A stretch of 42,511 bases of DNA from an uncultured bacterium (lineage in GTDB: Bacteria; Planctomycetota; UBA8108; UBA1146), in NCBI GenBank assembly GCA_913056395.1, contig CAJXMG010000024.1, positions 1 to 42,511 on the forward strand, read 5' to 3'. A model generated the notes under the pieces. That model saw only the letters and a list, made by a program, of their open reading frames with translations. It ran no database searches and had not been told where the DNA came from. A program made the position numbers and the translations under genes. Below are positions 3,832-30,135 of this stretch, in pieces. How positions within the stretch are numbered: position 1 is the stretch's first letter; each line of letters opens with the position of its first letter.

Positions 3832-3860
3832 ATCGTATTTGTATCGCCGGGAACTGTCAA
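3832..3860 (-). promoter_or_regulatory. Sigma-70 promoter of rplM-rpsI
   Basis: On the minus strand TTGACA (plus 3855-3860) is followed after exactly 17 bases by TACGAT (plus 3832-3837). This is a perfect -35 box and a good -10 box with optimal spacing. Transcription should begin near 3825, leaving about 155 bases of untranslated leader before rplM. The remaining sequence between the stop at 3906 and rplM holds no gene. Confidence 0.85.
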
Positions 3861-11867: not shown

Positions 11868-14540
11868 TCAGTTGAACAGTTTCTGTTCCTCTGCTCGCAG
11901 GTCAACAATCTTGGCGGTCACCAGGATGTAGAGACTGCGTTTCTCATTCAGGTTCGCCTTGCGACGGAAAGCGTTCTTGAGAATCGGAAGATTTCCAAGA
12001 ATCGGCACCGTCGACTCGTAATTGAGTTCGTTCAACGAGCGGAAACCACCCAGAAGAACCGTACCACCGTCAGGTACCGTCACAGAGGTAAAGGCCTGCT
12101 GAAGAGAAATCTCCGGCAGGTCAATCTCCACGAGACTGGCCGCACTGGACAGGGTACCCAAACTGATCGTCACAGTGGAAATCACCCCGTTGATCAGACT
12201 TGCGAGAGTCGGACGCACGTCGACGGTGATGTAACGACGATCGGCGGAGATGACCGGACGCACGTCAAGAACGACACCGTCCTGGAAGGTGTCGATCACC
12301 GGGTCTGCCACCTCGGACACGACCAGTCCGGTACCACCGGAAACCAGTTCGTAGTCCTGAACGTAAGAGCGCTGGGTGATCACGGACACGTGAACCCGCT
12401 GACCATTGGAGGCGGTCACCTTGGGTGCGGTCACAATTCGGGCAGCTCTCTCTTCCTGACTGGCGCGAATGATGGCGTTGATCTGGAAAGGATCGAGCCA
12501 GGTCACCTGCATCGTCAGACCACGAAGAGTCGAGTTCAGTCGGCTACCTGCTGCTCCCCCGACAAATCCGTCGAGGATGTTTTGCATGCGACCGGCAGTC
12601 CTGTTCTGACCCATGACCAGAAGCGGATCAGCGGGGTCACCAAGGTTGTTGAAACCGATGTCGGTTCCACCGGTGCCGGAGCTGTTGAGACTTCCGTATG
12701 CAGTACCGAATCCCTGTCCTGGAGGCTGTCCCAAGTTGCGGGAGTCGACTCCGATGTCTTCAAGGAAATCATCAACCATGTCGATGAAGCGGGCTTCAAC
12801 GACCACGAAAACGTCACTGTTCGCACGGAGGTTGCTCAGGAAGTCCTGAATAGAGAGGTGCAACTCACGAGTGGCAGTCACGAGAATCTGTCCCTTGTGA
12901 CCACTGATCGTCGAGTTGGATTCATCCCAGGCATCCGCACCACCGGTGGATTCCTGAATCAACTCAACCAGATCGTCGGGAGTCAGCTCCGCGTCCTCTT
13001 CCTCATCAAAACCGCCGAAGTCGAAGGGGTTGTCTCCTCCACCACCTTCACCCTCGTCGTTACTGGAAACACGGATCGCCGGTCCAGGGAAGTCGCGAAT
13101 CTTGTTGAGGATATCGGTCACGTTGTAGATGTCGAAGATCAGGTCACCGAATGCATTTTCGGGCTCGGTGATGAAGAGGATGTTCTCCCTGAAAGTGTAG
13201 GCCTTGCCGGTAGCCTTCATGATCAGGTCGAGAGCCTCACCCAACTTGACGCCCTCAAGAGAGAGGTTGACGGAAACGTCGGAGGCATCGATCTCGGGAT
13301 CGATGGTAATGTTGAGATCACTGACCGAGCGCAGGAACTCCACTACCTCGCCCAGATTGGCGTCCGGGAAGTCGAAGGAGGTGGTTCCGGTGGCAAGGGT
13401 CCGACGAATCTTGCGAATCTCTGGGGACTCTTCCAAGTTGGCACTGGAGAGGTCTTTCAGGCGCTGCTGAACCTCACCCTGCCAGAACCCACGATCATCC
13501 GGGAAACGGAAAGGATCCTCGTAAGGGATCGCACTCGCTTCCAGATCTTCCCACACGCGAGTGGTCTGCTCCTTCTCGCGACCGAGGTAACTCACGTAAC
13601 GGAAGGAACGCAGGAACTCATTGGCACGATCCTGAAGACGACGTGCTGCCAGATTTTCCGGGTCGATTCCCAGAATCGTCTGCGAAAGCTGAATCGCCTC
13701 ACGGAAGTCTTCGCGGACCATTGCATCCTCGATGCGATCCATGAGAGTGGCGATGCGCTCAAGGCGACGCTTCTCTGCTTCGCGAGTCAAACGCTCTGCC
13801 TCTTCGATGGCGAGGGCTTCCTTCTGCTCTCTGGAACGCTTGTCCATGTCGATCTTGAGACCGCGGGCAGTATCGTAAAGCTTCTGGGCTTCAGCCTGCA
13901 TGTCGGTCACATCGACTCCGTAATCGAACCAGATCAGTCGCTCACGGGCACGCTGAAGCAATCCCAGAGCTTCATCCACGTCTCCTGCATCCAGTGCGGC
14001 TTTGCCGTCGGAAAGGAAACGGGTCGCCTCACTGAGGCGCTGCTCTTCCAACACCCGGACTTCTTCACCGAACTGCTGAAGAATCGTGCGGATCTCTCCG
14101 TCCCGGCGGCCGAGGAACATCAGGCAGCGAGACAATTTCTCTTTCGCTTCCTGAAGGGTCGGGTCGGCATCGAGCGCACGACGGTAGGCCCGCTCGGCCG
14201 CAGCATAGTTCGCTTCGGCGAACAGCTTGTTGGCCTGCTCCAGAAGCCAGTTCGCCGTGGCGCGGTCTGCCTGCTTGGCGAGGTTGACCTCGTCAGCAAC
14301 AGCACGCACCGAACGATCACCGGGATCCTGGGTACGGTTGAAAAGATCCTGTCCTTCCGCTGGTGCTTCCGTCTTTGGCGGCTCGAAAGCGACCTCATTC
14401 GGACGCGGATCTGCAGATCCGCTACAGCCGGAGAACAGAAGCACGATGATTCCAAGGCAGACGAAACTGCCAGGAAGCATGGAGGTTCCGCGAGAGACGG
14501 TGGGGACAACACCGTTCTGGGATTTCTGGGTCTCAATCAC
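11868..14540 (-). CDS. Secretin, probable outer-membrane lipoprotein (secretin A of a pair)
   Basis: An 890-residue protein. A hydrophobic signal ends in a lipobox-like LLFSGC with Cys at residue 39. A TPR/coiled-coil region follows (about 80-370), then an STN-like domain (FDFPDANLGEVVEFLRSVSD) and secretin N-domains. The C-terminal secretin domain carries VTVPDGGTVLLGGF and VPILGNLPILKNAFRR. Secretins form 12-15-fold outer-membrane channels for type II/III secretion and type IV pili. The GTG at 14538-14540 is chosen because AAAGGG lies about seven bases upstream; a longer frame from 14630 lacks such a site and runs towards the exbD gene. Lipoprotein secretins are a minority (BfpB and TcpC are known examples). 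It is the last gene of the pilM-N/exb block. Confidence 0.88.
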   Translation of the reverse strand: MIETQKSQNGVVPTVSRGTSMLPGSFVCLGIIVLLFSGCSGSADPRPNEVAFEPPKTEAPAEGQDLFNRTQDPGDRSVRAVADEVNLAKQADRATANWLLEQANKLFAEANYAAAERAYRRALDADPTLQEAKEKLSRCLMFLGRRDGEIRTILQQFGEEVRVLEEQRLSEATRFLSDGKAALDAGDVDEALGLLQRARERLIWFDYGVDVTDMQAEAQKLYDTARGLKIDMDKRSREQKEALAIEEAERLTREAEKRRLERIATLMDRIEDAMVREDFREAIQLSQTILGIDPENLAARRLQDRANEFLRSFRYVSYLGREKEQTTRVWEDLEASAIPYEDPFRFPDDRGFWQGEVQQRLKDLSSANLEESPEIRKIRRTLATGTTSFDFPDANLGEVVEFLRSVSDLNITIDPEIDASDVSVNLSLEGVKLGEALDLIMKATGKAYTFRENILFITEPENAFGDLIFDIYNVTDILNKIRDFPGPAIRVSSNDEGEGGGGDNPFDFGGFDEEEDAELTPDDLVELIQESTGGADAWDESNSTISGHKGQILVTATRELHLSIQDFLSNLRANSDVFVVVEARFIDMVDDFLEDIGVDSRNLGQPPGQGFGTAYGSLNSSGTGGTDIGFNNLGDPADPLLVMGQNRTAGRMQNILDGFVGGAAGSRLNSTLRGLTMQVTWLDPFQINAIIRASQEERAARIVTAPKVTASNGQRVHVSVITQRSYVQDYELVSGGTGLVVSEVADPVIDTFQDGVVLDVRPVISADRRYITVDVRPTLASLINGVISTVTISLGTLSSAASLVEIDLPEISLQQAFTSVTVPDGGTVLLGGFRSLNELNYESTVPILGNLPILKNAFRRKANLNEKRSLYILVTAKIVDLRAEEQKLFN

Positions 14541-14560
14541 GAGAGCACCCTTTCTTCTTT

Positions 14561-14642
14561 CGCCCGCCCCTCCAAGGGACAACGGGCGAGATCGGCAAAT
14601 TGCAAACAACACACTCGACGTCGGAAGCACTCAAACTTCCGA
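14561..14642 (-). other. Two hairpins between exbD and the lipoprotein secretin gene
   Basis: TCGGAAG (14621-14627) pairs with CTTCCGA (14636-14642), a 7-bp stem starting about ten bases after the exbD stop. CGCCCG (14561-14566) pairs with CGGGCG (14583-14588), with CCCT/AGGG able to pair inside. Neither has a following T run. They could be RNA-processing or attenuation elements that set secretin levels separately from the motor genes. Confidence 0.35.
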
Positions 14643-14651
14643 AACGCCACC

Positions 14652-15164
14652 TCAGTCCATCGGGGTTTCCGGTTGGGCAAAGGCAATGTTTTCAATCTCT
14701 AACTTGGCACAAATGTTCAAAACGTCGATCACGTACTTGTATGGAACTTTCTCAGCAAAATCGATGACCACCGGCAGGGTTGCGGTGTCACCGAGAGCCA
14801 CATATGTATCACGACGGCGCAGAATATGCTGCTCGATGAAATCGAGATTCGGCCCCGGTATTCCTGTATGCAACTCGTAATCTGTATCCAACACATCACT
14901 GGTCGGAACCTGCGCCTGATCAGCGTAGGCCACGACCTGATCACCCTGGTAAAGCAGGGTCACACGACAATTCTCCGACAGCATCGGACGGCTGTTCGAC
15001 TCTCCCCGGTTCTTCGGGAGATAGGATCGAAGCGTGCCCTCCGGCATCTTGAACTTGGTCGCCAGCATAAAGAAGATCAATAGCAGGAATACCACGTCGA
15101 TCATCGGCGTCATGTCCGCTTCGGCTTTGTTACCGTCCGGATCAACAACCTTTTTTCTCGCCAT
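14652..15164 (-). CDS. exbD: ExbD/TolR-family biopolymer transport protein (second copy)
   Basis: A 170-residue protein with the ExbD layout: a short basic cytoplasmic start, one membrane helix (about residues 22-40) with the family motif ADMTPMIDVVFLLLIFF, and a periplasmic domain. Asp23 in the motif is the expected proton-carrying residue of ExbD/TolR/MotB-type stators. The C-terminal region (YVALGDTATLPVVIDFAEKV and following) fits the periplasmic fold that engages the load protein. It follows another exbD by 53 bases and precedes the lipoprotein secretin, so the two ExbD proteins may form a heteromeric plug in one ExbB ring. Confidence 0.9.
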   Translation of the reverse strand: MARKKVVDPDGNKAEADMTPMIDVVFLLLIFFMLATKFKMPEGTLRSYLPKNRGESNSRPMLSENCRVTLLYQGDQVVAYADQAQVPTSDVLDTDYELHTGIPGPNLDFIEQHILRRRDTYVALGDTATLPVVIDFAEKVPYKYVIDVLNICAKLEIENIAFAQPETPMD

Positions 15165-15217
15165 GATTCCTCCTTTCCTCTTCTTTCATTTCAAAACAGA
15201 CCAAAAACTGTCGCACA

Positions 15218-15727
15218 CTATTCAACTTTGTAGGGATCCTCAAATCGCTCTCCGATGGCCGCGCAACGGACCTTGTAGATCCGGGCTTTCTGACAGGCTC
15301 CAAAGACCTTGTGAATATTTCCGGCTTCGGCTCCCTGGTCACAGCGAATCGTCACTTCCAGCCTGGACAAACGGGCCGCAGGATCCGGGTTTGCCGGATT
15401 GTCTTCCCAGAGGTCGTAAGCTTCCGCTTCCTGCCGCAAGGCAAGAGTCAACTGCTCTGCTGTCATCGCCGGACCATTCATCAGCTGAACGATCTCTTTA
15501 CCCTCCGAATCGAAGGACACGTTGACGAACAGGATTCGACTTCCTGGCTGCGGCTCTTCCACCGTGGCTTCTGAAGCCACCGGTAAAATCACTTCAGCCT
15601 GCTGCACAGTCAGCTCGGTGACCACCATGAAGAAGACGATCAGCAGGAACACGATGTCAATCATGGGCGTCATGTCCATGTCGACACCTTTCCTAGCCAG
15701 AACGATTTTTCTTTTCTTCTTGGCCAT
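15218..15727 (-). CDS. exbD: ExbD/TolR-family biopolymer transport protein (first copy)
   Basis: A 169-residue protein: basic N-terminus (MAKKKRKIVLARKG), then MDMTPMIDIVFLLIVFFMVV, a single helix with the conserved proton-path Asp24. The periplasmic domain ends in CQKARIYKVRCAAIGER. It is clearly diverged from the neighbouring ExbD outside the helix, so the copies are probably not redundant. It starts 17 bases after exbB with GGAGCAGG as ribosome site. Known ExbD dimers convert proton flow through ExbB into motion of a periplasmic or outer-membrane partner; here the obvious candidates are the TPR proteins and secretins of the same block. Confidence 0.91.
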   Translation of the reverse strand: MAKKKRKIVLARKGVDMDMTPMIDIVFLLIVFFMVVTELTVQQAEVILPVASEATVEEPQPGSRILFVNVSFDSEGKEIVQLMNGPAMTAEQLTLALRQEAEAYDLWEDNPANPDPAARLSRLEVTIRCDQGAEAGNIHKVFGACQKARIYKVRCAAIGERFEDPYKVE

Positions 15728-15744
15728 ACCTGCTCCATCCAGCC

Positions 15745-16509
15745 TTAAGCGCCGGCTCCGTCATCGAAACGGGACATCAGCTCAGAGGCGATACTGCTCA
15801 CCTCAACCGAAGCACCGTCGATGATGGTTTTCAAAATGAAGTATGAAATCGTCATCGGAATCGCCACGATCAACCCCATCATGGTGGTCATCAGAGCTTC
15901 CGAAATACCCGACGCCAGATCCTTCGGTTTCGGTGAGGTTTTGCTGGTCGCAATCACGTTGAACGCCCCGACCATTCCCATCACCGTTCCCAAAAGACCC
16001 AACATGGGTGAGATCGCCGCAATCAGGGAGATGTAACTGATCTTCCTGTGAAGCTCGGAAGATTCCATCTCGCCGGCTTCCTCCATTGCCTCTTCAATGT
16101 CTTCGTAAGGGCGATCAATTTTCGGCAGTCCGGCTGCAAGAACACTGGAAAGAAAGCTGGGCTGCTGCTCGCATGCGTCCAGGGCGCCCTCGTAATCGTC
16201 GGTCTCAAAAAGGGATTCGACGTGATCCAGAAGATCAGGGGGAACGAGAACGTCACGACGAAGTTGCATTCCATGCATCAGCGTCAGAGCCATTCCTGCA
16301 CCGGAGAGCAGAATCAGGATCACACCCACCGCACCAGCGGCTTTAATATTATCGAGTACGGAAACCGTCTCGACGGGCGCATCACCCTCGGCCTGGGCAT
16401 AGGCCACGACACTGGTTCCCAAAACAAGGGTCACAGTGAAGATGGTCAGGAGAAGAACGCGGGCTGCCGAAACACCCCGAATCTTGCTCATGAAACCTGT
16501 CAACTTCAT
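15745..16509 (-). CDS. exbB: ExbB/TolQ/MotA-family proton channel protein
   Basis: A 254-residue protein. A signal-like N-terminal helix (residues 17-38, ending VAYAQA) is followed by three membrane segments (about 57-80, 160-183 and 204-228). The family hallmarks ISPMLGLLGTVMGMVGAF (166-183) and GISEALMTTMMGLIVAIP (201-218) are present, with TDYEGALD-like cytosolic helices between. This is a stator ring subunit that uses the proton gradient. The start is the ATG at 16507-16509 after GAGAGGAAAG; a start six codons earlier would bury that site. It lies between the TPR genes and two exbD genes, the same order as many Tol/Exb operons with a TPR partner. Confidence 0.92.
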   Translation of the reverse strand: MKLTGFMSKIRGVSAARVLLLTIFTVTLVLGTSVVAYAQAEGDAPVETVSVLDNIKAAGAVGVILILLSGAGMALTLMHGMQLRRDVLVPPDLLDHVESLFETDDYEGALDACEQQPSFLSSVLAAGLPKIDRPYEDIEEAMEEAGEMESSELHRKISYISLIAAISPMLGLLGTVMGMVGAFNVIATSKTSPKPKDLASGISEALMTTMMGLIVAIPMTISYFILKTIIDGASVEVSSIASELMSRFDDGAGA

Positions 16510-16548
16510 TTTTCTTTCCTCTCTCACCTGTTTGTAGAGGTGATTCGA

Positions 16549-17634
16549 TTACTTGTTCCAGCGGGAGTCCGGGGCGACCTGCTTCAGTCTTTGGGTCAAA
16601 CTTTCCGCCCTATCCGTATCTCCCTGTTTTTTGGCCAATTCCTTGGCTCGATACAACGCTTCAGCGAGCACTTCGCCATTCCCGGTCGAAGCCATGACGG
16701 CAGCCCGGAGATAACGGATCATGGCCCACTGTAACTCACCGGCATCTCCACCGGCCTGTTCTTCAGTGGAACGCCCCCAGACCAGCCAGCCATGGGCACG
16801 GGCCGCAGTGTTGCCAAGGACATCCTTGTTTCGTGTCTCGAGGATCTGCTGACGCACCGTATCGGCGGCCTGCTTCCACTGCTTCTGTCCCTGCTGTGCA
16901 CTGGCATAACCAATCCACGCCTGACAGATCTGATCCGTCGATGCATTGGAGTCATTGGACACAGAGGAGAACTCTTCACGACAAGCGCCCCAGTTCTCCT
17001 GGGCCAACAGGCTTTGTGCCTTGCCCAATCGTGCCCCGACCACCCAACGACGTCCCATGTTTCCGGAAGCAAGACTGGAGAGTGCGCTCTCCGCTTCCGA
17101 ATAGTTTCCGGATTTGCGATGGGCTTCGGAGATCGCCATGCGTGCATGGGGAACGTAGAAATCCTTCTTGCTTTCAAACTCGTTCAAGTAGGCCTCTAAT
17201 GCGGAGACCGCTTCCTTGTACTTCGTCGCATCGGAATCACCCCAGCGAAGCAGGGACAATCCGTGCATGTACATGGCACTCGATTTTTTCAGGGCGTCCC
17301 CCATGCTGGTCGCCGACTTGAAACTGCTGGCGGCAGTTTCCCAGTCACCGTTCTCAAAGGCTCCTCGCCCACGGGCCAAGCTGGAAGATTCTCTGGAGAA
17401 AACCAGTCGCTCCACTTTGTCTGCATCGACTTTTTGCGCAGTACTGACTCCCGGCAATTTGAACTGGACCTGCTCGTAAGTGGCTCCAGTAATCGTCACG
17501 TCTTCATAGTTCCTGCCACCAGAGACAATAATCTGGTCCGCAAGGAGTCCGTTTCCGGCAAACGGAAGCAACATTCCGAAAGTCAGAAGAAAGAGCACAG
17601 AGTAGCGCTGCATGGTTGGCGTTCTTTCCATCAT
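16549..17634 (-). CDS. Exported TPR-repeat protein preceding exbB
   Basis: A 361-residue protein with a signal peptide (about residues 1-30, ending LLADQ). A short beta-rich domain follows (about 33-80: GGRNYEDVTITGATYEQVQF, then KVDADKVERLVF), and then helical TPR-like repeats to the end. The domain pair resembles TPR proteins that sit beside exbB operons and could play a CpoB-like role between motor and envelope; that is inference. The ATG at 17632-17634 overlaps the preceding stop as ATGA and has GAGGAA eight bases upstream. ATG codons at 17640 and 17631 are also possible. No catalytic motif is visible. Confidence 0.78.
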   Translation of the reverse strand: MMERTPTMQRYSVLFLLTFGMLLPFAGNGLLADQIIVSGGRNYEDVTITGATYEQVQFKLPGVSTAQKVDADKVERLVFSRESSSLARGRGAFENGDWETAASSFKSATSMGDALKKSSAMYMHGLSLLRWGDSDATKYKEAVSALEAYLNEFESKKDFYVPHARMAISEAHRKSGNYSEAESALSSLASGNMGRRWVVGARLGKAQSLLAQENWGACREEFSSVSNDSNASTDQICQAWIGYASAQQGQKQWKQAADTVRQQILETRNKDVLGNTAARAHGWLVWGRSTEEQAGGDAGELQWAMIRYLRAAVMASTGNGEVLAEALYRAKELAKKQGDTDRAESLTQRLKQVAPDSRWNK

Positions 17635-20465
17635 TTGCATTCTTCCTCCAGACGATCAAAGCGAGCCTGGAGTCCTTCCGGGGCAAAATCTTTACCGTCC
17701 CCGGCCATCAACTTGCGACTGCGAATCAACTGAATGACATCTTCACAACGGCCCTGGGCTTTCAGTACTTCCATGTACTGCAACCATGCGGACCAGTAAT
17801 CACGCTCGAAGACAGGGTTGGTTCCGCCAGAGAAGAGCAGCGACTTGCGACGCTGATCGAGAATGGCGATGGCTGCCTGAAGATCCTCGGACATCGACTT
17901 GAGACGGCTCGCCGAGCGATCGGACTGGTAGAGCCCCATTTCGGCAGAGGCCCTCTGAATCAGCACGAAAGGAGCTTCGTTGTAGGAACCGCTGTAAGTG
18001 TTGTCTTCGTAGTTCTCGATGATGGCATTGAGACTGTCGAGGGCTTCCTTGTTCCTGCCAGCGGCATTGGCAGCTTTTGCAAGGAAGTAGGAAACACCGA
18101 TCACCAGTGATTCCTCACCGGATTCCAACGCCTCTTCCTGAGCTTTCGACAGCATCTCCGCAGCCTCTGCAGAGAAACCTCCATCGATCAGGATCGATGC
18201 CAGACCCAGTCGGACTCCCGGTCCCGATTCTTCGAAGCCGGATCCCGGCAGACGGATCCAATCCAGGACCAACTCTCCTGCCCTGCGCTGGTTCTCCGGG
18301 GTGGAGGAAGCAGCATAGGCTTCGATCAGGTAGTAGGTACCGGCAACGAGAGTCTGACTGTCGGGCCAAACCTTGCGCAGTTCAGCCAACACTTTTTCCG
18401 ATTCAGCGGTCTTGCCGTCCGCTGCAAGAACTTCGAGCATGAAGAGCAACGCACCTTCGCGGTAGACGTTGTTGCCGCCGATCTCATTCAAAACAGGCTG
18501 CAAATACTTGAGTGCTTCCGCAGAGTCCTTGCCGCGGTCACCCCAGTAGATCTTTGCCAACTCGTAACGAAGAACCGATTCCCCACCGACACTACGGGCT
18601 TCACGTGCTTGGGAAAGCAACGGAAGAATTTCTCCACTCGCATCCTTTTGTGCCTGCTCCGTATCACTACTGGACCGGAAAAGGCAACGGGCAGCACCCG
18701 CACGGGCCCTGAAGAAGAAGGGCACCTGCTTCTCTTCTTCGCCGTCGTTATAGGTTCTGGAAATCCTGCGGAACAATTCACGGGCCTTGCGGTAATCTCC
18801 TTCGAGTTCCGCCTCAACAGCCTGTTGAAGTTTCAACTGCTCGCTGCCCAAACCCTGAGAATTGTCAGCGAACAATTTCTCTGCAACAACCAACAGTTCG
18901 CCCCAAGGCCCGTCAGCACCGCTACCGGCGAAATCACCGGCGATGGCAAAGAAGTTCTGTGCGGCCATCGCCACCATCCGTGAATCGGGGTAGTTCTCTG
19001 CCAACTCCTGATAAGCGAGGGCCGCCTCAATCGATCGGCCGAGTGCATCGCTGGACTCACCGATCTCGTAGAGCGCCTCGGCTCGCCATGTGGCGGCTTC
19101 CTTGCTGTCATCGGAAGCGTAAAGAGCCAACTTTGCAGTTTCGATCGACTTCTCCGGCAATCCGCGATCACGGAATCCCAAAGCGGCCCGTGCATAATAT
19201 TCTGCGGGGAGATTACCCGCTCCCAACTCCTGAAGCCTGCTTAATCCGCGATTGAGACCGGTGACCACTTCCCGGGCCTGACCGGGATCTGTGGAATAAG
19301 CTTCCGGGTTATCGAAGCGATCGATCACCGCGTTGATCAACTGGAATCCACCGGGGCGATCACCGCTGGCGAGCCGGGTTACCCCCTCTTCCACATCCAG
19401 AAGTGCGACGAGTGTCGCCAACTCCGGGTCCTCCGGGGTTTTTCTGTAGGGGAAATCAGGTTGTTCCTCTTCGTAGAGGAAATCGAGAAGGTCGAGTCCG
19501 TCCTGTGGCTGACCTGAGCGATTGTAGGCACGCAGGGAACCAGTCAGGGCTTCGACCCTCATTTGACGGATGAAGTAGATGACGTCATCGCTGTAGGGAG
19601 GATCTGCACTGGGTTCGATGTCGACCAGCAGCTCCAGGGCACCGGCCGCTTCTTCAGCCTGCCCCGCTGCCGAAAGCGCCTGACCATAGATCAACTGCGC
19701 CTCATAGCGACGGCCAAAGTTTTCGTAACGGGAGTTGACGAACTCGTCGGCAAAGGTGGCAAGGGCCATGTACTTGGCCTGGGCCGCCTCACTGCCATCC
19801 GGCAACATCGCGGCATAAACCTTGTAAGAATTCAGTCGATTGAACTCCCAAAGATCACGGATACGAGTTTCCTCAGCCAGTTTCCCCGCCAGTTCATCCC
19901 GATCGGAATCACTGGCCCGCATGACCTTGTCCTCGCTGCGCGAGACCTCGTCATTCAGGCGGCGAATGTTTTCATTCAGAACCTTGTCGATCTCTTCATT
20001 CCAGATGCGATCGCGAAGATCCATCGCCTGTTGACGCTGGGAAGGACTGGTTGCAAAAATCATTTCGGTGTTGGCATCGGAAAGCCTCAGCAGTGCGGCC
20101 AGCACCGACTCCAACTGGGCTCCCTTCGAACGGGGATGATTCGGGTACTTTTTGGCGAGCTTTTGAATCTCGGCCTCATACCCGTCCACATCCCCCTCGA
20201 TACGCATGGCGTCCGCCAGAGCAAACTCGAGGCTCGCTCTGCCACCGGAATCAGCCGTCTTGATCCGGGACTGAATCCAGACCCGGGCAAGATCAGGGCT
20301 GCCATAGGTTCCGAGCAGTTCACTGACGAAAACGGTTTCCTCCATAGTCAACGGCCCCCTGCCCAATGACTGGGCGGGCGCGATTGCCGGTACAAGCAGT
20401 ACCGCCAAGAGAGCCAGACCAGGGACGAATGACGTCCGGAGGGTATGAGAGAATCCGTTGAACAT
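17631..20465 (-). CDS. Large exported TPR-repeat protein
   Basis: A 944-residue protein with a cleavable signal peptide (about residues 1-32, ending AIAPAQ). The rest is almost wholly helical repeats of about 34-40 residues, for example AALAYQELAENYPDSRMVAM and GEYRKARELF-like units. A coiled-coil-like stretch at about 150-200 is rich in D, E and R. It should be periplasmic. It lies 39 bases after secretin B and overlaps the next TPR gene by four bases, so it is made with the secretin and motor. A scaffold or pilotin-like role is plausible but unproven. AAGG six bases before the ATG supports the start. Confidence 0.78.
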   Translation of the reverse strand: MFNGFSHTLRTSFVPGLALLAVLLVPAIAPAQSLGRGPLTMEETVFVSELLGTYGSPDLARVWIQSRIKTADSGGRASLEFALADAMRIEGDVDGYEAEIQKLAKKYPNHPRSKGAQLESVLAALLRLSDANTEMIFATSPSQRQQAMDLRDRIWNEEIDKVLNENIRRLNDEVSRSEDKVMRASDSDRDELAGKLAEETRIRDLWEFNRLNSYKVYAAMLPDGSEAAQAKYMALATFADEFVNSRYENFGRRYEAQLIYGQALSAAGQAEEAAGALELLVDIEPSADPPYSDDVIYFIRQMRVEALTGSLRAYNRSGQPQDGLDLLDFLYEEEQPDFPYRKTPEDPELATLVALLDVEEGVTRLASGDRPGGFQLINAVIDRFDNPEAYSTDPGQAREVVTGLNRGLSRLQELGAGNLPAEYYARAALGFRDRGLPEKSIETAKLALYASDDSKEAATWRAEALYEIGESSDALGRSIEAALAYQELAENYPDSRMVAMAAQNFFAIAGDFAGSGADGPWGELLVVAEKLFADNSQGLGSEQLKLQQAVEAELEGDYRKARELFRRISRTYNDGEEEKQVPFFFRARAGAARCLFRSSSDTEQAQKDASGEILPLLSQAREARSVGGESVLRYELAKIYWGDRGKDSAEALKYLQPVLNEIGGNNVYREGALLFMLEVLAADGKTAESEKVLAELRKVWPDSQTLVAGTYYLIEAYAASSTPENQRRAGELVLDWIRLPGSGFEESGPGVRLGLASILIDGGFSAEAAEMLSKAQEEALESGEESLVIGVSYFLAKAANAAGRNKEALDSLNAIIENYEDNTYSGSYNEAPFVLIQRASAEMGLYQSDRSASRLKSMSEDLQAAIAILDQRRKSLLFSGGTNPVFERDYWSAWLQYMEVLKAQGRCEDVIQLIRSRKLMAGDGKDFAPEGLQARFDRLEEECK

Positions 20466-20504
20466 GAAAACCTTCTATCTGAACTGCGTCAGATTTCCTT
20501 GTGA

Positions 20505-23021
20505 CTAGTTAAAGCGCTTCTCTTCCTCATCACGGATCACCGTGATTTTGGCACTGATCAGCACGAACAGATTGGACTGCATTCGGGAATTCCCCTTACG
20601 TCCAGCCAAGAGATCCAGAATCGGCAATCGCGAGAAGACAGGAATACCGGCACGAGACTCCTGAGTAATCGTTCTCTTCAGACCACCCACCAGAACAGTT
20701 CCACCATCGGGAATCGTTACCGTAGTCTTGATGTTGGTCACTGAAAGAACCGGGAATTCCACGTTCAGGTTTGTCAGTCCCAGAGTCAGGGTCTTGAATC
20801 TGGAGGGCAACTGCACTGCCAAAGTCGGCTCGATCTCGAGGATCACGTATTTGCGATCGTGACTCACTGTCGGACGTACCTGAAGGATCGATCCACTGTT
20901 GAGGATTCCGATCACTGGGTTGATCACAGGAACCACACCGGTCTGGTTGACCTCGGCGTCCTCGATGTAGGCGCTTTGATCCACAACCAGAGAGTGAGAG
21001 ATCTGGGTGTTGAAGGCCGTCACACGCGGGGCATCCAGCTTCTTGGTGCGCTGGATTTTCTGGTTAGCTTCCAGAATCGCCTCGAGGGCGTAACTGTCGA
21101 GAACGTTGTACTGCAGTGCAAAACCACCGGTGTCAGAAAGGTTGAAGGGAGACACCGAAGAACCCAGTGGCAGAGAGAAAGCGTTGTAGACCGCTGCACG
21201 GACGTCAATCTCTCCCTGAGCGTCGACGATCTCGAAACCGGAAGCAATCTGCGTTCCTGCTCCGTCGATGTCATTGATCGGGTTCGGAAGGTTCGAGTTG
21301 AACGGGTTTCCGTAATCGACGCCGATGGACTCAAGGAAGTTATCCTGAAGATCAATGAAGCGGCTTTCCACCGTCACCATCACACCTGTGGACTTACGCA
21401 GAGCCTTGAGCAACTGAACCAGTTTGCGGTGATTGGCGAGGGTGGTGTTGGCCACGAGACGACCATTCTGGATCTTGACCGATTCGCCATCCGGCTCGCC
21501 TTCGTCGCCGAAGAGCGCATTGATAACGAGCTCGACAAGAATGTCGGAATCAAGAGTGGTCTCCTGGGAATCCTCTTCACCACCGATGTCGAAGAGTCCA
21601 CCGGCACCGCCGTCATCGCCATCCTGACTCGACTCGAGGGCGAGTCGGGGAGCACGGAAGTCAGGCTTGTCCTTGGTGATATCGGAAACTTCGTAGAACT
21701 CCAGGAACACATCGTTGCGGACCGAGTCGGAGGGTCCAATCAGGACCGCTCCCGAACGGATGACGTAAGTGAAGGGAGGATCATTCCCCTGAAGGACCAG
21801 GTTGAGCACGTTCTCCAGCGGCAGGTCTGTCACTTCCGCAAGACGGACGGTTCCATCTCCACCCTCGAGAGCCTCGGAGGCCTCTTTCGTCAGCACAAAG
21901 TTGATACCGGAGAGCTCTCTCAGGAACTGAATCACCTGCTCAAAAGGCTCATCCTCGAACTCAACACTGGCAACACGAACCTTCAGGCGCGAACGGATGG
22001 TTTTGACCTGCTGGCTCTCGACTGCCTGAAGACGATCTTCGAGGGACTGCTCCTGACGGCTGATGCGCAACCACTCTTCGCGAGTCGGGAAGTTGAAGAT
22101 GTCCGTGTAGGGAATCTCCGACTCCAACTGGCTCAGGAAGGTACGGTCCCACTCCAACTGGGTCTGAAGGCTGGTATCCAGTACTTCGTAAAGGTGGCGA
22201 AGCTCGGCCGCCTCACGACGCAGTGCGCGGACATCCTTTCTGGAAGGATCGAGCAACAGCACTTCATCGCAAAGGGCAATCACACGCTCGTAATCACGCT
22301 CGGAGAAGAGCCTGCGTGCCTGGCGAAGGATCTCGTCGATACGATTCTGAATGAAGGAGACGGAGCGGGCCATCTCAGACTCCGCTTCAGCAAGGATACG
22401 CATCTCACGTTCACGCTTCTCAGTTGCCGCGAACTCATTCTGAAGACGGATCGACTCCTCTTTCGACTGACGGGCACGATTCTGTTGATCGCTCAGGTCG
22501 TAATCGAAGGGGAACCAGCGGATGCGCTCAAGGATCTGATCGAAGACGGTGATCGCCTTGTCGTAACTGCCTTCGTCCATGGCTCTGCGTCCGTCGAGGT
22601 AGAGACGCTCAAGCTCAAAGACGTCCTGCTGAAGGCGAACCTTCTTCTCGTCGACCATTCGACGCTGAAGATCACGGATGTCTCCGCTGCGGTCACTCAG
22701 CAGCATCAAAACTGTATCGAGAAGCTCACGGGCATTCTCATTGCCCGGATCAAGGCGTACTGCCTCCTGCAACTTCTCTTCGGCTTCGATATAGCGCAGT
22801 TCGTTGATCAACTTCTCTGCTGCGTTGACTGCTTGAATGGCAGCCCCGGCACGGGCCTGATTCTCCAGGTTCACATCGCGAATCAGTCCGTCCACGCCCC
22901 CATCTTGGGCCACGACCGGTTGAGCAGCGAAGCTGAGGAGCAACAGGGCCAGAGCGATCACTGAGAAAACGCTTCTCGCCGCAGCAATTCTGAAGTTGGG
23001 CTCCCGGAGGCTTATCGACAT
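20505..23021 (-). CDS. Secretin with signal peptide I (secretin B of a pair, PilQ/GspD-like)
   Basis: An 838-residue protein. It has a signal peptide (about residues 8-38, ending VVAQDG) and N-terminal TPR plus long coiled-coil helices (about 55-330). An STN-like domain (VEFEDEPFEQVIQFLRELSG) and secretin N-domains follow. The C-terminal secretin domain carries VTIPDGGTVLVGGLKR and IPVFSRLPILDLLAG. The ATG at 23019-23021 is chosen for AAGGAGAGATCG just upstream; a longer frame from 23090 would not use it. The domain order, an IPYTDIFNFP string before the STN domain and the final EEEKRFN closely parallel secretin A, so the two are paralogues. Directly preceded by pilM-N, pilO and pilP-position genes, it is the likely PilQ of that platform. 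Confidence 0.9.
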   Translation of the reverse strand: MSISLREPNFRIAAARSVFSVIALALLLLSFAAQPVVAQDGGVDGLIRDVNLENQARAGAAIQAVNAAEKLINELRYIEAEEKLQEAVRLDPGNENARELLDTVLMLLSDRSGDIRDLQRRMVDEKKVRLQQDVFELERLYLDGRRAMDEGSYDKAITVFDQILERIRWFPFDYDLSDQQNRARQSKEESIRLQNEFAATEKREREMRILAEAESEMARSVSFIQNRIDEILRQARRLFSERDYERVIALCDEVLLLDPSRKDVRALRREAAELRHLYEVLDTSLQTQLEWDRTFLSQLESEIPYTDIFNFPTREEWLRISRQEQSLEDRLQAVESQQVKTIRSRLKVRVASVEFEDEPFEQVIQFLRELSGINFVLTKEASEALEGGDGTVRLAEVTDLPLENVLNLVLQGNDPPFTYVIRSGAVLIGPSDSVRNDVFLEFYEVSDITKDKPDFRAPRLALESSQDGDDGGAGGLFDIGGEEDSQETTLDSDILVELVINALFGDEGEPDGESVKIQNGRLVANTTLANHRKLVQLLKALRKSTGVMVTVESRFIDLQDNFLESIGVDYGNPFNSNLPNPINDIDGAGTQIASGFEIVDAQGEIDVRAAVYNAFSLPLGSSVSPFNLSDTGGFALQYNVLDSYALEAILEANQKIQRTKKLDAPRVTAFNTQISHSLVVDQSAYIEDAEVNQTGVVPVINPVIGILNSGSILQVRPTVSHDRKYVILEIEPTLAVQLPSRFKTLTLGLTNLNVEFPVLSVTNIKTTVTIPDGGTVLVGGLKRTITQESRAGIPVFSRLPILDLLAGRKGNSRMQSNLFVLISAKITVIRDEEEKRFN

Positions 23022-23186
23022 CGATCTCTCCTTGCTTTGAAGTATTTGCTTACGAATCCACATTCGCTCGCAACTTTTCCGGACCAACACTGTTGGCCAT
23101 TTTTTGCAGTTTCAATTCGCACCATAGAGCCAACGCTCTTATGGGGTGCTGGCCAAATCGCCCCGTGGCGCAGTGGCCCGTACAGT

Positions 23187-25131: not shown

Positions 25132-26997
25132 CTATTCTTCTTCGCCAGTGGATTCCCCGGGCAAGGGCGGGTAAATCCAACGGATGGTCCAAGGGTAAAG
25201 CGGAGTGCCGTGATCCTTGGCAGCGTCGTCACTGCCTCCGCGGGTACGTCCCATTTTGAAGTTGTCGTCCTGCGCCCACATCAGCATCGTTTCCATGCCA
25301 ACTTCGCGGGACACCCTCTCGCGACCATAATCCGCTTCCCCAAAAGAAGCCTTCAATGAAGCCTCGATCGGATCTGCAACCATTGCCTTGAGTTGATTAT
25401 TGTTGGTCGTGGCGTCTCCCTGATCGTAGCGGAAGCCACGAACGGTCACCTGATAACGATCGTTGTAAACGACGTCTTCGGAATCAGCCTTTGCCCCCTT
25501 GTCGAGGATTGTTCCATCTTCGCGCACACGAACCTTGCGGATTTCAAACCCAGAGAGCCAGGTCTTCCGCGTGTTCAGAGATTCCTGTTCTGCTTCTACA
25601 GATCCACGGGTGCTGTCCTTGTCGGGGCCATCTTCCACCTCGATACGCACCGATTCAGAAACCAGTTCCGAATTGGGAATGCTGGCAATCAAAGCCATCA
25701 CTTCAGTGGGAGCCAGACGTCCGGCACCGTGCGCGAGAAGAAGGTTTTGTCTGGCTTCGAGGTTGGATCGTCCCTCTTCCTGAAGCTCTGTGAGTTTCTT
25801 TTCGTTCGCTTTCAGTTCGTTGACAAGCTTCGCCTCCTGCAAAACCGCATTGGCGTCGTCAATCTTGCCTCCGAAAATCAGGATGAAGAAAACGATCAAC
25901 AGGTAGAGGGAAGCGGTCGCCCCCAGTACCAGTTTTTGTTTCTTCTTGAACTCTGCGGCCTCTTGCTGCTCCTGCGGCAACAAGTTCAGTTGAACGTCAC
26001 CGAGGCCAAGAGCCTGCAATCCTGCACCGATACATGAGGTAAAGGACTGGAGGTCCTGCTGGACCACGTTTGCCTCGGGGCGAATCCGGACTCTCTGAAG
26101 GGATTTGAAGATCTGCACCCGAATTCGCAGGTTGTCCTCAAGGAACTTGCGCAATCCAACAACCTTGCCACTGCCACCGAAGAGGAAAAGATCCTCAATC
26201 TTCAATTCCCCGGCCCGTGACTTGTAGTAACCGATCGAGCGGTTGATCTCACTGACCAGATCGCGAAGCAATGGCTGCAAAACTTCGAAAATCTTGGCGG
26301 CATGATCAGACTTGGCGGCCGTCACTTTCAGGTTCTCGGCTTCCTCTTCGGAGCAGTTGAAACGCTCCTGTAGTGCATTCGTGAAATCCTTGCCGGAGAC
26401 AGGAATGGAACGGAACCAATAACGGGACTCATTGACGATGACGAGGTCGGTGTGCTGTGCACCGATCTCGAGGGCAACCATGGGACGCTTCGGACGAAGG
26501 TCGAAGCGGATCAGATTCAAAAGACCCACATTGCCCAGAGTAAGAACATCGACACCGAGGTTGTCGGAATCGAGATCCTCCAGAAGGTCGGAAACCTCTT
26601 CCTGACGAACCGCAAAGATTCCGATCTCCTTTTCGCCGTCATCGGTATCGCCACAAACATGGCTGTCCCAAATGACGTCTTCCATCGGCAGGGGAATATT
26701 TTGTTGCGCTTCGTAACCGATCAGCTCTTCCAGCTTTTTTCCATCCACTGGGGGAACCGTGATGAAACTGGTCAAAGCAGAACGACTGGGAAGAGCAATC
26801 GCCAGAGGTCCGTTTACAGAATGCTGCGATGCCAATGTCGAAATGGCAGCAGCATTGGCCTCCGGGCCAGCCCCTGAGGGGTGCTCTATCTTTTCAGCGG
26901 CAACGATTTCAGCACCATTGCCGGATCGCTGGATCTTGATCGCCTTGAGGGAACTCTTTCCCCCGTCGATACACCAGACTTCGTCGAAGTCAGCCAT
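25132..26997 (-). CDS. pilM: PilM-PilN fusion protein of a type IV pilus-like platform
   Basis: A 621-residue protein. Residues 1-330 form an actin-like ATPase domain of the PilM type: CIDGGKSSLKAIKI (phosphate loop 1), SFITVPPVDGKKLEELIGYE, MVALEIGAQHTDLVIV (phosphate loop 2) and DLFLFGGSGKVVGLRKFL. Then QLNLLPQ (about 336-342) appears, the short INLLP motif by which PilN normally docks on PilM, followed by a membrane helix (about 356-376), a coiled coil and a periplasmic domain as in PilN. The two proteins are thus joined in one chain. The ATG at 26995-26997 follows GAGAGGTAGC. It is the first gene of the machine block. A pilus role is not proven because pilins are absent here. Confidence 0.85.
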   Translation of the reverse strand: MADFDEVWCIDGGKSSLKAIKIQRSGNGAEIVAAEKIEHPSGAGPEANAAAISTLASQHSVNGPLAIALPSRSALTSFITVPPVDGKKLEELIGYEAQQNIPLPMEDVIWDSHVCGDTDDGEKEIGIFAVRQEEVSDLLEDLDSDNLGVDVLTLGNVGLLNLIRFDLRPKRPMVALEIGAQHTDLVIVNESRYWFRSIPVSGKDFTNALQERFNCSEEEAENLKVTAAKSDHAAKIFEVLQPLLRDLVSEINRSIGYYKSRAGELKIEDLFLFGGSGKVVGLRKFLEDNLRIRVQIFKSLQRVRIRPEANVVQQDLQSFTSCIGAGLQALGLGDVQLNLLPQEQQEAAEFKKKQKLVLGATASLYLLIVFFILIFGGKIDDANAVLQEAKLVNELKANEKKLTELQEEGRSNLEARQNLLLAHGAGRLAPTEVMALIASIPNSELVSESVRIEVEDGPDKDSTRGSVEAEQESLNTRKTWLSGFEIRKVRVREDGTILDKGAKADSEDVVYNDRYQVTVRGFRYDQGDATTNNNQLKAMVADPIEASLKASFGEADYGRERVSREVGMETMLMWAQDDNFKMGRTRGGSDDAAKDHGTPLYPWTIRWIYPPLPGESTGEEE

Positions 26998-27041
26998 GCT
27001 ACCTCTCTCCACCTTCTGACCCCTCTCTGGGAGCCGTCAGG

Positions 27042-27062
27042 GATCTGCCCTGCAGGCAGATC
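27042..27062. promoter_or_regulatory. Palindrome upstream of pilM-N (candidate operator or leader hairpin)
   Basis: GATCTGCC (27042-27049) and GGCAGATC (27055-27062) are perfect inverted arms around CTGCA, 45-65 bases upstream of the pilM-N ATG. As DNA it could bind a dimeric regulator; as RNA it would form an 8-bp leader hairpin. No T run follows. Confidence 0.5.
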
Positions 27063-27093
27063 GAATGGTACAAATCATCACTTCAACAATTTC

Positions 27094-27106
27094 ACTTCAG
27101 TGAAGT
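27094..27106. promoter_or_regulatory. Second palindrome upstream of pilM-N
   Basis: ACTTCA-G-TGAAGT (27094-27106) is a perfect 6+1+6 palindrome about 100 bases upstream of pilM-N. Its ACTTCAG half is the same string that starts each unit of the 16-base tandem repeat at 27259-27306, which suggests a shared binding motif. Function is inferred. Confidence 0.4.
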
Positions 27107-27218
27107 AGTGAGCAGAAGAACCGGGCGAAACAAATCCGCCGAAAAAGCCGGGAACGGTTTCAGCCCTGAAGGCGTTCTTCATTCCGGACTCTTGCACGAC
27201 ACTTCCACTGCAATGAAC

Positions 27219-27242
27219 ACCGTAGCGAAAACCGTAGCGAAC
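27219..27242. repeat. Two tandem copies of a 12-base unit
   Basis: ACCGTAGCGAAA (27219-27230) is followed directly by ACCGTAGCGAAC (27231-27242), 11 of 12 bases identical. It lies 16 bases before the 16-base tandem array, so the same short segment has duplicated twice over in different registers. Confidence 0.8.
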
Positions 27243-27258
27243 ACTGCAACATTCCCGC

Positions 27259-27306
27259 ACTTCAGCATTCACACACTTCAGCATTCACACACTTCAGCAT
27301 TCACAC
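27259..27306. repeat. Three perfect tandem copies of a 16-base unit
   Basis: ACTTCAGCATTCACAC is repeated exactly at 27259-27274, 27275-27290 and 27291-27306. There are no spacers, so it is not a CRISPR array. The period is not a multiple of three, so it does not encode a peptide repeat. It resembles an iteron-like or variable-number array about 260-310 bases upstream of pilM-N. Confidence 0.92.
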
Positions 27307-27911
27307 TGGCTGAAGACCGAATGTCACCGCTACCCTGCTTCACACTTCTCTCGTCAATACAAACTCGGGAATCAATGAAATGGAATGAGTGCTCTTCACC
27401 TTCCGACCCCACTTCACAAAGAAGCTGGAACCTTGCGGAACCGCCTCAGGGAAGCGTGACTGAAACCGCGACCGCACCTGGTGAAATCCCCGACGCAATC
27501 GTGCTCTCTGTCGAAGGCCAACCGGCATCCGATGCAGACCACTTCGCTATCCATAGAGGAGAAGAGACTTTGGAATCCTTTGCAGATTCCGGACTTCCGT
27601 AACTCCCCGATGGCCGAAGTTTTAATCGGCCTGCAACCCGCAACCGGATGCATTCGGTTCATCGAAAATCGATTTCCGAATACAGACGATTCGCCGGTCT
27701 GCACTGCACACCATTCCGGTGGTCCACGTCTCCGTTTCCCACCGAAACCCACAAACTTGTATCCACTCAAAATCCGAAGAGCTCATCAGAAAGTTGACGC
27801 AATCTTTACTCACGCAAAGGAGGCGCAGACAAGTCAGAAACGGTCTCTTCGGTTCATTCTTTCCTTCCCCATATGCAGGATCTGCCCTCCCGGACCCGTG
27901 GGCCCGGGATG

Positions 27912-27936
27912 AAAAATCCCTCTTGGGGAAGAGGGA
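27912..27936 (-). terminator. Intrinsic terminator of the coaD-to-UDG gene run
   Basis: On the minus strand TCCCTCTT-CCCC-AAGAGGGA, a perfect 8-bp stem with a four-base loop (plus 27917-27936), is followed by five T residues (plus A run 27912-27916). It lies about 100 bases after the DNA-glycosylase stop. A second hairpin, TCCCGGACCCGTGGGCCCGGGA at 27888-27909, follows immediately. Confidence 0.85.
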
Positions 27937-28034
27937 AGTATAGATGCCTGATAACCGGAGTCAACGCCCCGAAACCGTCTCATTTGCCAAAATTCGATCG
28001 TCCTGAGGAGTTGAAGAGAAGTCGGAACCAGCCC

Positions 28035-28838
28035 TTAGCGGGGCAGGTCCAAAGCGGTGATCACCTGCTGGAGATCTCGCCAGCACTCCGCCTTGAACTG
28101 GGGCTGACGAAGCAGGAAAGCGGGGTGATAGGTCACCACCACGGGAATGCCTTTGTAAAGGTGAGATTGGCCCCTGAGGCGCTTCAGGGAAGTCTCCTCC
28201 CCTGTCAAAAAGGCGGCTGCAGGTTTGCCGAGAGCGACGATCATCTCGGGGCTAACCAGCTCTATCTGCTTCTCAAGGAAGCCTTTGCACGATTGGACCT
28301 CCTCAGGACGGGGGTCCCGATTCTCGGGAGGGCGACACTTCAGTACATTGGCGATGTAAACCTGGTCACGGGTTAACTTCAGGCCCTGAGTAATGATCCG
28401 GTCCAGAAGTTGACCAGCCCGGCCCACGAAGGGCTCACCACGCCGATCTTCTTCTGCCCCGGGAGCCTCACCGACAAACATCAGCCTTGCCTCGGGATCA
28501 CCGCAGCCAAAGACCGTTTGGGTGCGGGTTTGACTCAGAGAGCATTCTTCACAACCGGAGACCTTTCGGGCGAGCCCTACGAGATCAGCCGGGAGGTCAG
28601 AACTCTTAACCTCGACTGCACTTACAGCATTCTTTACGGGACTCTCAACAACACTGACCGGGTTCTCCTCCACCCTGGAGCCGGTTTCGACCGGAGGATC
28701 CTCGGGTGGAATGCTATCCGTTGTGGGAGAATCGGCGACCAGGTCCCCCCGTCGTCGGCGGACACCCCAACCCGCCAGAGCACGATCATGAAATTGAGCC
28801 GGAAAGTGCAGGCTCCCGGATAGTGGGAGATCAGACAT
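28035..28838 (-). CDS. Uracil-DNA glycosylase, family 4 (iron-sulfur type)
   Basis: A 267-residue protein. The first 85 or so residues are a basic then proline/serine/glutamate-rich extension; the rest is a family-4 uracil-DNA glycosylase. Visible motifs are [30 protein letters not shown] (active-site loop), [21 protein letters not shown] and [11 protein letters not shown]. The four cysteines (C-x2-C, then C and C) are the 4Fe-4S ligands. It removes uracil from DNA to start base-excision repair. The ATG at 28836-28838 has GGGAGG six bases upstream and overlaps the mtaB stop by eight bases (ATGTCTGA); longer frames run inside mtaB and are rejected. Confidence 0.93.
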
Positions 28839-30135
28839 GGGGAGCCTCCCGGACCGGATGTCGAGCCAGGAACTTGTCCCCCTCAACAGATTCCAGCAAT
28901 AAAGGGATTTCCTGACCCCGAACCGCTTCCCCTTCGCGGACCCTGACTCGCAGCCCCTCTCGGGACATCCCCTCGCCACCGCCGTCGGGATCTGTTTTTT
29001 CGATCAGGACATGTGCGACCTGACCCAATCTCTTTTCCGCAACCTGGAGCTGGACTCTTTCACAAAATTCCCTAGCGCGAACCATGCGGTCATGTCGGAT
29101 CTCCGGTGAAACGTGATCGGGCAATCGTGCGGCTCGGGTACGTGGACGTGGACTGTAGGGAAAAAGATGAACCTTGGCGAAGCCGATCTCTTCCACTCTT
29201 CGCATCGACTCCTGAAAGTCATCTTCTGTCTCACCGGGAAAACCGATGATCAGATCGGTCGCAAGGGTGGCATCCGGCAAACGCTGTCTGGTTCGTTCCA
29301 TCGCCTCCGTAAAATCTTTCAGTGAATAGTCCCTGCCCATGGCTTCAAGAATCCGTGCGCTGCCACTTTGCAAAGGCACATGAAAGAAGCGGCACAATCC
29401 TTCGTCATTTTCAAAAGCCTGAAGAAATCGGTCGGTAAAGGCACCCTCGCCGATGGACGATAGACGAATTCGGTCAATACCGGGGATCTGTCGCAGCTCC
29501 GTCAGCAATCGCCCCAGACCATCTTCAATCCCCAGATCCCGTCCCCATTGACGCAGGTGAATCCCCGTCAGCACCAACTCTGAAAAACCGGCCTCTGCCA
29601 GCCTCTTCGCTTCATCCAATACCGGTTGATGATCCCTGCTGCGTGACCCCCCTCGCATGTAGGGGATGATGCAATAACTGCAGAAAGAATCGCAGCCGTC
29701 CTGAATCTTCAGGAATGCTCTCGTGCGTCCCTCAAAACCGGAAATCTTCAAACCAAAAATTTCCCGGGACTTTCTTTTCACAGGGCCTGTCGACAATTCC
29801 GCACCGTTAACGATTTCAGCAATTCGATGCTTCTCTTCATTCCCTACCAGATGGGTCACTCCCGGAATCTCTGCCAACCGCTCGCGATCATCTTCAGAGA
29901 TACATCCGGTGACGATGACATCCGCGGATGGATTTTTCCGGGTCAGGGATTTGATGCGTTCTTCAACCTTGATACCCGCCCGCTCGGTGACCGTGCAAGA
30001 GTTGACGACGACCAGGTCGACCCCTTCCGCCTTGGCAACCTCCTGATAGCCCAGGTCGAGAATCTCTTCCCGGATCGCCTGGGTATCGTATTGGTTGATC
30101 TTGCAACCAAAGGTGATGAAGGCGCACTCGGGCAT
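28831..30135 (-). CDS. mtaB: tRNA t6A37 methylthiotransferase MtaB (MiaB-like radical SAM)
   Basis: A 434-residue protein with the three-domain methylthiotransferase layout. The N-terminal domain has three cluster cysteines (TFGCKINQ, VNSCTVTE, VTGCISED). The radical SAM core carries C-x3-C-x2-C in DGCDSFCSYCIIPYMRGGSRS, with GFPGETEDDF and HLFPYSPRPRTRA further on. A C-terminal TRAM-like domain ends the protein. FGCKINQYDT and the core sequence fit the MtaB/YqeV branch, which makes ms2t6A at position 37 of tRNAs reading ANN codons. The ATG at 30133-30135 follows CAGGGATT. It starts 27 bases after oppF and overlaps the glycosylase gene. Confidence 0.92.
   Translation of the reverse strand: MPECAFITFGCKINQYDTQAIREEILDLGYQEVAKAEGVDLVVVNSCTVTERAGIKVEERIKSLTRKNPSADVIVTGCISEDDRERLAEIPGVTHLVGNEEKHRIAEIVNGAELSTGPVKRKSREIFGLKISGFEGRTRAFLKIQDGCDSFCSYCIIPYMRGGSRSRDHQPVLDEAKRLAEAGFSELVLTGIHLRQWGRDLGIEDGLGRLLTELRQIPGIDRIRLSSIGEGAFTDRFLQAFENDEGLCRFFHVPLQSGSARILEAMGRDYSLKDFTEAMERTRQRLPDATLATDLIIGFPGETEDDFQESMRRVEEIGFAKVHLFPYSPRPRTRAARLPDHVSPEIRHDRMVRAREFCERVQLQVAEKRLGQVAHVLIEKTDPDGGGEGMSREGLRVRVREGEAVRGQEIPLLLESVEGDKFLARHPVREAPHV

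Follow-up and report, generated by a model that had tools for sequence, protein, structure and literature searches.

A putative long, folded 5′ leader of the PilM/secretin operon in a lineage of Planctomycetota

The interval between a uracil-DNA glycosylase (UDG) superfamily gene and pilM in an uncultured marine planctomycete is best read as the transcribed, untranslated 5′ leader of the PilM/secretin operon, folded and present class-wide, with control after transcription initiation as its likeliest job. We assign this reading a probability of roughly 60%. A conserved promoter, non-coding status, a conserved position, excess folding and a compensated hairpin are its sequence-based supports; the transcription start, the read-through to pilM and every functional step we infer. 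The interval is probably not a switchboard of DNA sites. The comparisons that follow cover 15 members of the family or order, the genome of the window (the whole 42,511-nucleotide stretch analysed) being counted among them, with one genome per species. The close relatives, TMED53 and UBA1146 among them, are Planctomycetota metagenome-assembled genomes, a number of which are marine.

Extent, neighbours and promoter of the interval

The first-pass annotation had described 0.9 kb without a gene at positions 26998–27911. With the pilM ATG at 26997 and the UDG gene at 28035–28979, the gap occupies 26998–28034 and measures 1,037 bp rather than 914. Its non-coding nature and unusual size stand, and its length was understated. 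For spacer statistics, a gene caller based on hexamers was run over a 442-kb sample of this genome (assembly size 2.77 Mb), from which the genome-wide controls were also drawn. The gap is the longest non-rRNA spacer among 236, the median being 80 bp. It is single-copy in the genome, which rules out a mobile element or repeat family. The coordinates of the gap features and of the flanking genes are collected in Table 1.

Table 1 Features of the UDG–pilM interval and its flanking genes (window coordinates).
Feature	Position	Strand	Remarks
PilM-like gene, first in the secretin operon	25132..26997	-	Pfam PilM_2 E 6.6e-28; TIGR01175 137.7 bits
pilM-operon 5′ leader RNA (predicted), ~933 nt	26998..27930	-	Start placed 7 nt past the -10 hexamer
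pilM Shine-Dalgarno GGAGAGAGG	27002..27010	-	Invariant in genus alignment
Hairpin H2 (CTGAC...GTCAG)	27016..27040	-	Between H1 and ribosome-binding site
Hairpin H1, GATCTGCC-TGCAG-GGCAGATC	27042..27062	-	44-65 nt before pilM ATG
Palindrome ACTTCAGTGAAGT (ACTTCA-G-TGAAGT)	27094..27106		Not conserved; altered in G004 and G002
12-bp tandem repeat	27215..27241	-	TRF score 47
16-bp tandem array, transcript-strand unit GTGTGAATGCTGAAGT	27241..27306	-	TRF 4.1 copies, score 104
Internal block GTGGATACAAG...GTGTGCAGTG, genus-conserved in an otherwise divergent leader	27701..27766	-	Genus alignment
Motif GGGGAAGGAAAGAATG, 3′ arm of the 5′ hairpin, Shine-Dalgarno-like	27855..27870	-	Family form GGGAAGGAATG
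Long 5′-terminal hairpin burying the predicted RNA 5′ end	27863..27932	-	Arms 27932-27924 / 27871-27863
Conserved sigma70-type promoter TTGACT-N16-TATACT	27964-27937	-	15/15 relatives
Block GGCAAATGAGACnnTTTCGGGrCG abutting the -35 on its upstream side	27966..27988	-	Genus alignment
UDG superfamily gene, conserved upstream neighbour	28035..28979	-	Pfam UDG E 5.7e-39

The order UDG–gap–pilM was scored in relatives that carry both genes on one contig. It is kept in the family, in a member of another family (G016) and in most of the class, which is probably GTDB UBA1135, and can be traced into other planctomycete classes. The gap keeps to 695–1,059 bp throughout family f1 and in G016 despite sequence divergence beyond alignment, its sequence being poorly conserved between genera, and predicted leaders or gaps of same-class relatives range from ~275 nt to 1.5 kb. 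Because this order and the intervening promoter are conserved in the class and beyond it, the region almost certainly serves the pilM/secretin operon, to which it had been assigned from the start. The PilM-like protein scores above the curated cut-off of 133 bits for type IV pilus PilM (TIGR01175). The cluster downstream of pilM (window 11868–23090) encodes two secretins with TPR proteins, one ExbB and two ExbD between them; pilus-type secretins together with a proton-channel energiser are an unusual pairing.

The most conserved feature of the gap is the sigma70-type promoter, which is sited immediately past the UDG gene and was missed in the first pass because it lies outside the interval then considered. 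The form TTGAC-N17-TATACT is found in 15 of 15 relatives with a spacer of invariably 16 bp, and TTGACT-16-TATACT matches 10 of the 12 consensus positions (TTGACA and TATAAT hexamers at 16–18 bp spacing). TTGACT-N16-TATACT occurs once per genome, at this locus only, in the eight genomes searched. Spacers in the 442-kb sample hold five promoter-like sites that match at least 10 of 12 positions; the other four have leaders of 22–157 nt, leaving the pilM-gap promoter as the sole such site with a leader longer than 160 nt. Other Planctomycetota classes carry a near-consensus promoter at the same place with a leader of only about 80–220 nt, which indicates that the promoter belongs to pilM and that it is the leader that is long in this class. 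Abutting the -35 hexamer is a block (27966–27988) that is near-identical in G000, G006, G005 and G001 with divergent flanks and is missing from the sister genera; it is the best candidate for a control site at the DNA level. The only other 10/12 promoter-like site in a window spacer, TTGACA-N17-TACGAT, lies at 3832–3860 on the minus strand, ~154 nt before rplM (L13)–rpsI (S9).

Conserved blocks were also observed in other same-class relatives. At loci L165–L172 the first ~60 nt past the UDG-proximal promoter are conserved (in family f5, CCGTAAGAGTTTTAAAGCAAGyAACTTTCAGAGACGTTGAG), with AGCAAGTAAC common to f5 and family f3. Five f5 species (L166–L170) share a very strongly conserved block of ~185 nt that lies ~210–395 nt before pilM; within it, a further promoter-like sequence (TTGACT-N18-TACGAT) precedes foldable RNA with no Rfam match. 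This block is possibly a separate undescribed RNA; its promoter part is also present in L161, L164 and L165.

Folding of the predicted leader

The predicted pilM leader measures 590–950 nt across the family and is never shorter than 590 nt. Whole leaders were folded and compared with composition-matched dinucleotide shuffles. The stability of the window leader corresponds to z scores of -4.0 and -4.5 in two runs, and the sense leader RNA is more stable than its shuffles in all 15 species (z -1.4 to -6.3; second run -1.8 to -7.6). The mean z over the 15 species is -3.84 for the sense and -2.25 for the antisense strand (Wilcoxon P 0.01), compared with -0.81 for 14 coding control segments (versus leaders, Mann-Whitney P 4e-5), both P values overstating independence because the species are related. 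Four other long spacers yield z scores of -0.4 to -3.7. Among further class members, G018 reaches a single-sequence z of -8.25 over its 1.5-kb interval and L161, L165 and L170 exhibit no excess folding.

Consensus folding, which is optimised on the same data that score the fold, resulted in z scores of -7.2 (G000/G004/G002), -4.9 (G009/G011/G014), -4.3 (G005/G001) and -5.2 (with G015), and of -3.1 and -1.1 for pilM coding controls. Family f5 of the same class yields -5.65 for the sense and -1.25 for the antisense strand. Column shuffles give more broken pairs or fewer compatible ones than these consensus folds. The G000/G004/G002 fold has 12 broken pairs versus 21 +/- 3.4 in column shuffles, and its columns vary at 0.070 when paired versus 0.151 when unpaired (shuffles, 0.087 versus 0.120). 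With G006 (~70% identity) added to form a four-species alignment, antisense scores like sense (z -4.6 versus -4.1) and compensated pairs are in modest excess (44 versus 32.5 +/- 4.7), structure-based alignments being unreliable beyond 90% identity. No single architecture common to all families could be drawn.

The predicted structure opens with the long 5′-terminal hairpin, the outer stem of which appears in the minimum-energy fold of nine of 12 family members. Taken alone, this hairpin does not stand out clearly from its shuffles in stability (z about -1), and the automatic RNAalifold consensus of 12 sequences did not recover it because its inner loops are unalignable. Genera g1, g3 and g4 carry the 3′-arm motif GGGAAGGAATG in all of their 12 members, with GGGGGAGG as the one variant. 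A terminator-like hairpin is absent from the leader body in each of the 15 relatives. In three close species, one that is followed by a T-run extends across the predicted start; a 5′-terminal terminator/antiterminator switch was considered and rejected, as the feature is restricted to these three species and its upstream arm would precede the start site.

Two hairpins adjoin the pilM ribosome-binding site. In five of six genus members exactly 44 nt separate the 3′ arm of H1 from the pilM ATG; in the sixth the distance is 52 nt. Between species several pairs of H1 change on both sides, from U-A to C-G, from G-C to A-U and from C-G to U-A, with pairing retained, and G005 has one G-G mismatch. 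These compensatory changes are clear by inspection; the excess over the whole leader is modest and alignments beyond the genus are unreliable. An operator would keep its letters whereas H1 keeps its pairing, thus H1 behaves as RNA, and the earlier view of the GATCTGCC/GGCAGATC palindrome as a protein-binding DNA site loses its footing. In the sister genera a different hairpin, AACGGyG/CrCCGUU, ends 14 nt before the pilM ATG. In the four-species alignment, two pairs of the H2 helix are compensated and none is broken. The first bases of the leader, CCTCT (27930–27934), are complementary to AGAGG (27002–27006) of the pilM Shine-Dalgarno, so that the message could occlude its own start site with its 5′ end; this complementarity is kept in the genus and absent from the sister genera.

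In the mechanism that we propose, the one conserved promoter downstream of the UDG gene would start a transcript that folds into a large, strand-biased structure, opening with the hairpin that buries its 5′ end and closing, beside the ribosome-binding site of pilM, with one or two hairpins. The most economical proposals are that the first hairpin would protect the 5′ end of the mRNA and that H1 and H2 would regulate how accessible the start of pilM is, with a ligand or an RNA-binding protein as a possible cue.

The main rival to a leader is a stand-alone gene for a large structured non-coding RNA. Its transcript would begin at the conserved promoter and be cleaved or terminated ahead of pilM, which would itself be expressed by partial read-through or from a weak, unrecognised promoter. 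A near-consensus promoter where such promoters are rare, excess folding over the whole length, and the conserved blocks that directly follow the promoter in family f5 would all suit such a gene. However, no 3′ terminator was found, and a second promoter stronger than chance is absent from the last 260 nt of the leader in all but one of the 15 relatives (the exception, G009, is borderline, P 0.05). Moreover, the structured hairpins run on to the pilM ribosome-binding site, and in other classes the promoter at the same position lies ~80–220 nt before pilM, mostly too close for such a gene. We therefore consider an independent RNA unlikely.

Less probable still is an idle spacer, in which an old promoter has been stranded upstream, the DNA changes by slippage and the folding is a by-product of G/T-rich composition. 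The poor conservation between genera, the varying leader length and the tandem duplications, which account for 5.9% of gap bases over 15 species versus 1.2–1.5% in other spacers and 0.6% in coding sequence, agree with such drift. It does not explain why z is strongly negative in most species although dinucleotide shuffles preserve composition, why substitutions in paired columns run at about half the rate of those in unpaired columns, or why the length in the family does not fall towards the 80-bp median of other spacers.

Repeats, palindromes and coding potential

The three perfect 16-mers (27259–27306), the 12-mers and both palindromes are all present where the first-pass annotation had placed them, and the 16-bp array is far beyond chance. 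The annotation interpreted them as a regulatory landing zone with a possibly variable number of repeats. The repeat number indeed differs between species, as judged from one genome per species: G004, which has a related 12-mer repeat, retains a shorter and degraded form of the 16-mer array, and in G002 it is deleted, so that the array is gained or lost between species, although the gap is otherwise about 93% identical in these two nearest species. Arrays of 10–16-bp units occur in most relatives at differing positions and with differing units, and tandem duplications are about five-fold enriched in the gap and lineage-specific. A genome search for repeat arrays, which the annotation had suggested, found no other copy of the 16-mer at 0–1 mismatch, thus there are no such arrays elsewhere in the genome.

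Repeats of other kinds were encountered in passing. Matches to the 16-mer array in G039 (L008–L011), a planctomycete of another family, proved to be arrays of the 8-bp unit GAAGTGCT, of which this genome has many, and were dismissed as chance resemblance. At 2484–2509 of the window, a perfect 13-bp tandem duplication occupies the spacer immediately after tRNA-Leu.

For a DNA landing zone, in which a regulator binds the 16-bp repeats and palindromes and the copy number tunes the secretin operon, it can be said that these elements are real, that the 16-mers and the ACTTCA palindrome share a half-site and that their number differs between species. Nevertheless, neither the array nor the ACTTCA palindrome is conserved in the relatives with ~93% identical gaps, an outcome that the first-pass annotation had itself named as refuting its reading and that undoes their interpretation as regulator sites, and a palindrome with 6-bp arms and a 1-nt spacer arises in 19.5% of shuffles, making ACTTCAGTGAAGT chance-like. 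With the promoter at 27937–27964, the repeats lie ~620–720 nt and the two palindromes ~820–890 nt downstream of the predicted start, hence within the predicted ~930-nt leader; the repeats and the ACTTCA palindrome are ~620–840 nt downstream of the only conserved promoter. The other palindrome, H1, preserves pairing rather than sequence. A landing zone is thus very improbable. In the leader reading, the tandem repeats would be expansions by slippage, particular to each lineage, at a part of the RNA that tolerates them.

The non-coding character of the region, asserted in the first pass, was borne out. A Pfam search of the gap gave no match, and no known RNA family, tRNA or rRNA was found in it. 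Coding-model scores of the longest ORFs run from about -20 to -42. A sense ORF of 68 amino acids (27078–27284) scores 11.1, marginally under the cut-off of 12, and its substitutions between relatives are spread evenly over codon positions (4/8/7 and 6/9/5). Several indels of 1–2 bases occur in the gap outside the repeat region in three close species. A leader peptide after GGAAGGAA(AGA)ATG was also considered and rejected, because the short ORFs vary in length and sequence among relatives. An overlooked protein-coding gene, to which the stop-free stretches beyond shuffles in G000 and G005 and the marginal score of the 68-residue ORF might point, is hardly credible given these scores, the even substitutions, the lack of a Pfam match and the inconsistent places and sizes of ORFs among relatives.

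Relation to known RNAs and significance

Some Gram-negative mRNAs, for example those of rpoS and ompA, have long or structured untranslated leaders that govern translation or shield the 5′ end; these do not precede pilus operons, and we know of no sequence relation between them and the leader described here. A search of the window and its relatives against Rfam 15 gave no match at the gathering threshold, and GEMM-I, GEMM-II, OLE, ROOL and GOLLD were absent from the permissive matches. The literature yielded nothing on a pilM leader in Planctomycetota. The leader is therefore described as a structured leader RNA of a general kind, and membership in any named family is not claimed.

In position, the closest precedent is the GEMM-I (c-di-GMP-I class) riboswitch before pilM in Geobacter metallireducens, an RNA of ~100 nt that binds c-GAMP and acts through a terminator switch (PMC9262584). 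Both are structured RNAs in the leader of a pilM operon; however, the leaders here measure 590–950 nt, have no Rfam GEMM match and lack a terminator-like hairpin near pilM. The type IV pilus cluster of Clostridioides difficile carries a c-di-GMP-II riboswitch (PMC11477304), which is a small aptamer of known fold, whereas the present leader has no Rfam match. OLE, ROOL and GOLLD are large structured bacterial RNAs (PMC12286853, PMC9723947) and resemble the leader in size range and in folding over their whole length within an intergenic region. In contrast to them, the leader has no Rfam match, lacks long blocks shared across genera, being fast-evolving, and appears joined to the downstream gene. 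At the protein level, the operon resembles the PVC-type pilus operon (Amuc_1101 PilM-like and Amuc_1098 secretin; NCBIfam) in combining a PilM-like protein and a secretin, but the window matches are far under the Amuc equivalog cut-offs (191 versus 650 bits; 74 and 115 versus 750 bits).

More tentatively, the UDG–pilM interval of the class (probably GTDB UBA1135) might represent an undescribed class of giant structured RNA, 0.6–1.5 kb in length, that by sensing a signal or binding a protein controls the pilus/secretin machine and that has expanded from an ancestral leader of ~90 nt.

Folded leaders of 600–950 nt with sequence turnover are rare in bacteria, and the one predicted here sits on the pilus/secretin operon of a class for which metagenome assemblies are the main source of knowledge. 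If the reading is true, the RNA would be among the larger bacterial leader RNAs. The contrast with the leaders of ~80–220 nt behind the equivalent promoter in other Planctomycetota would make its origin and purpose directly testable.
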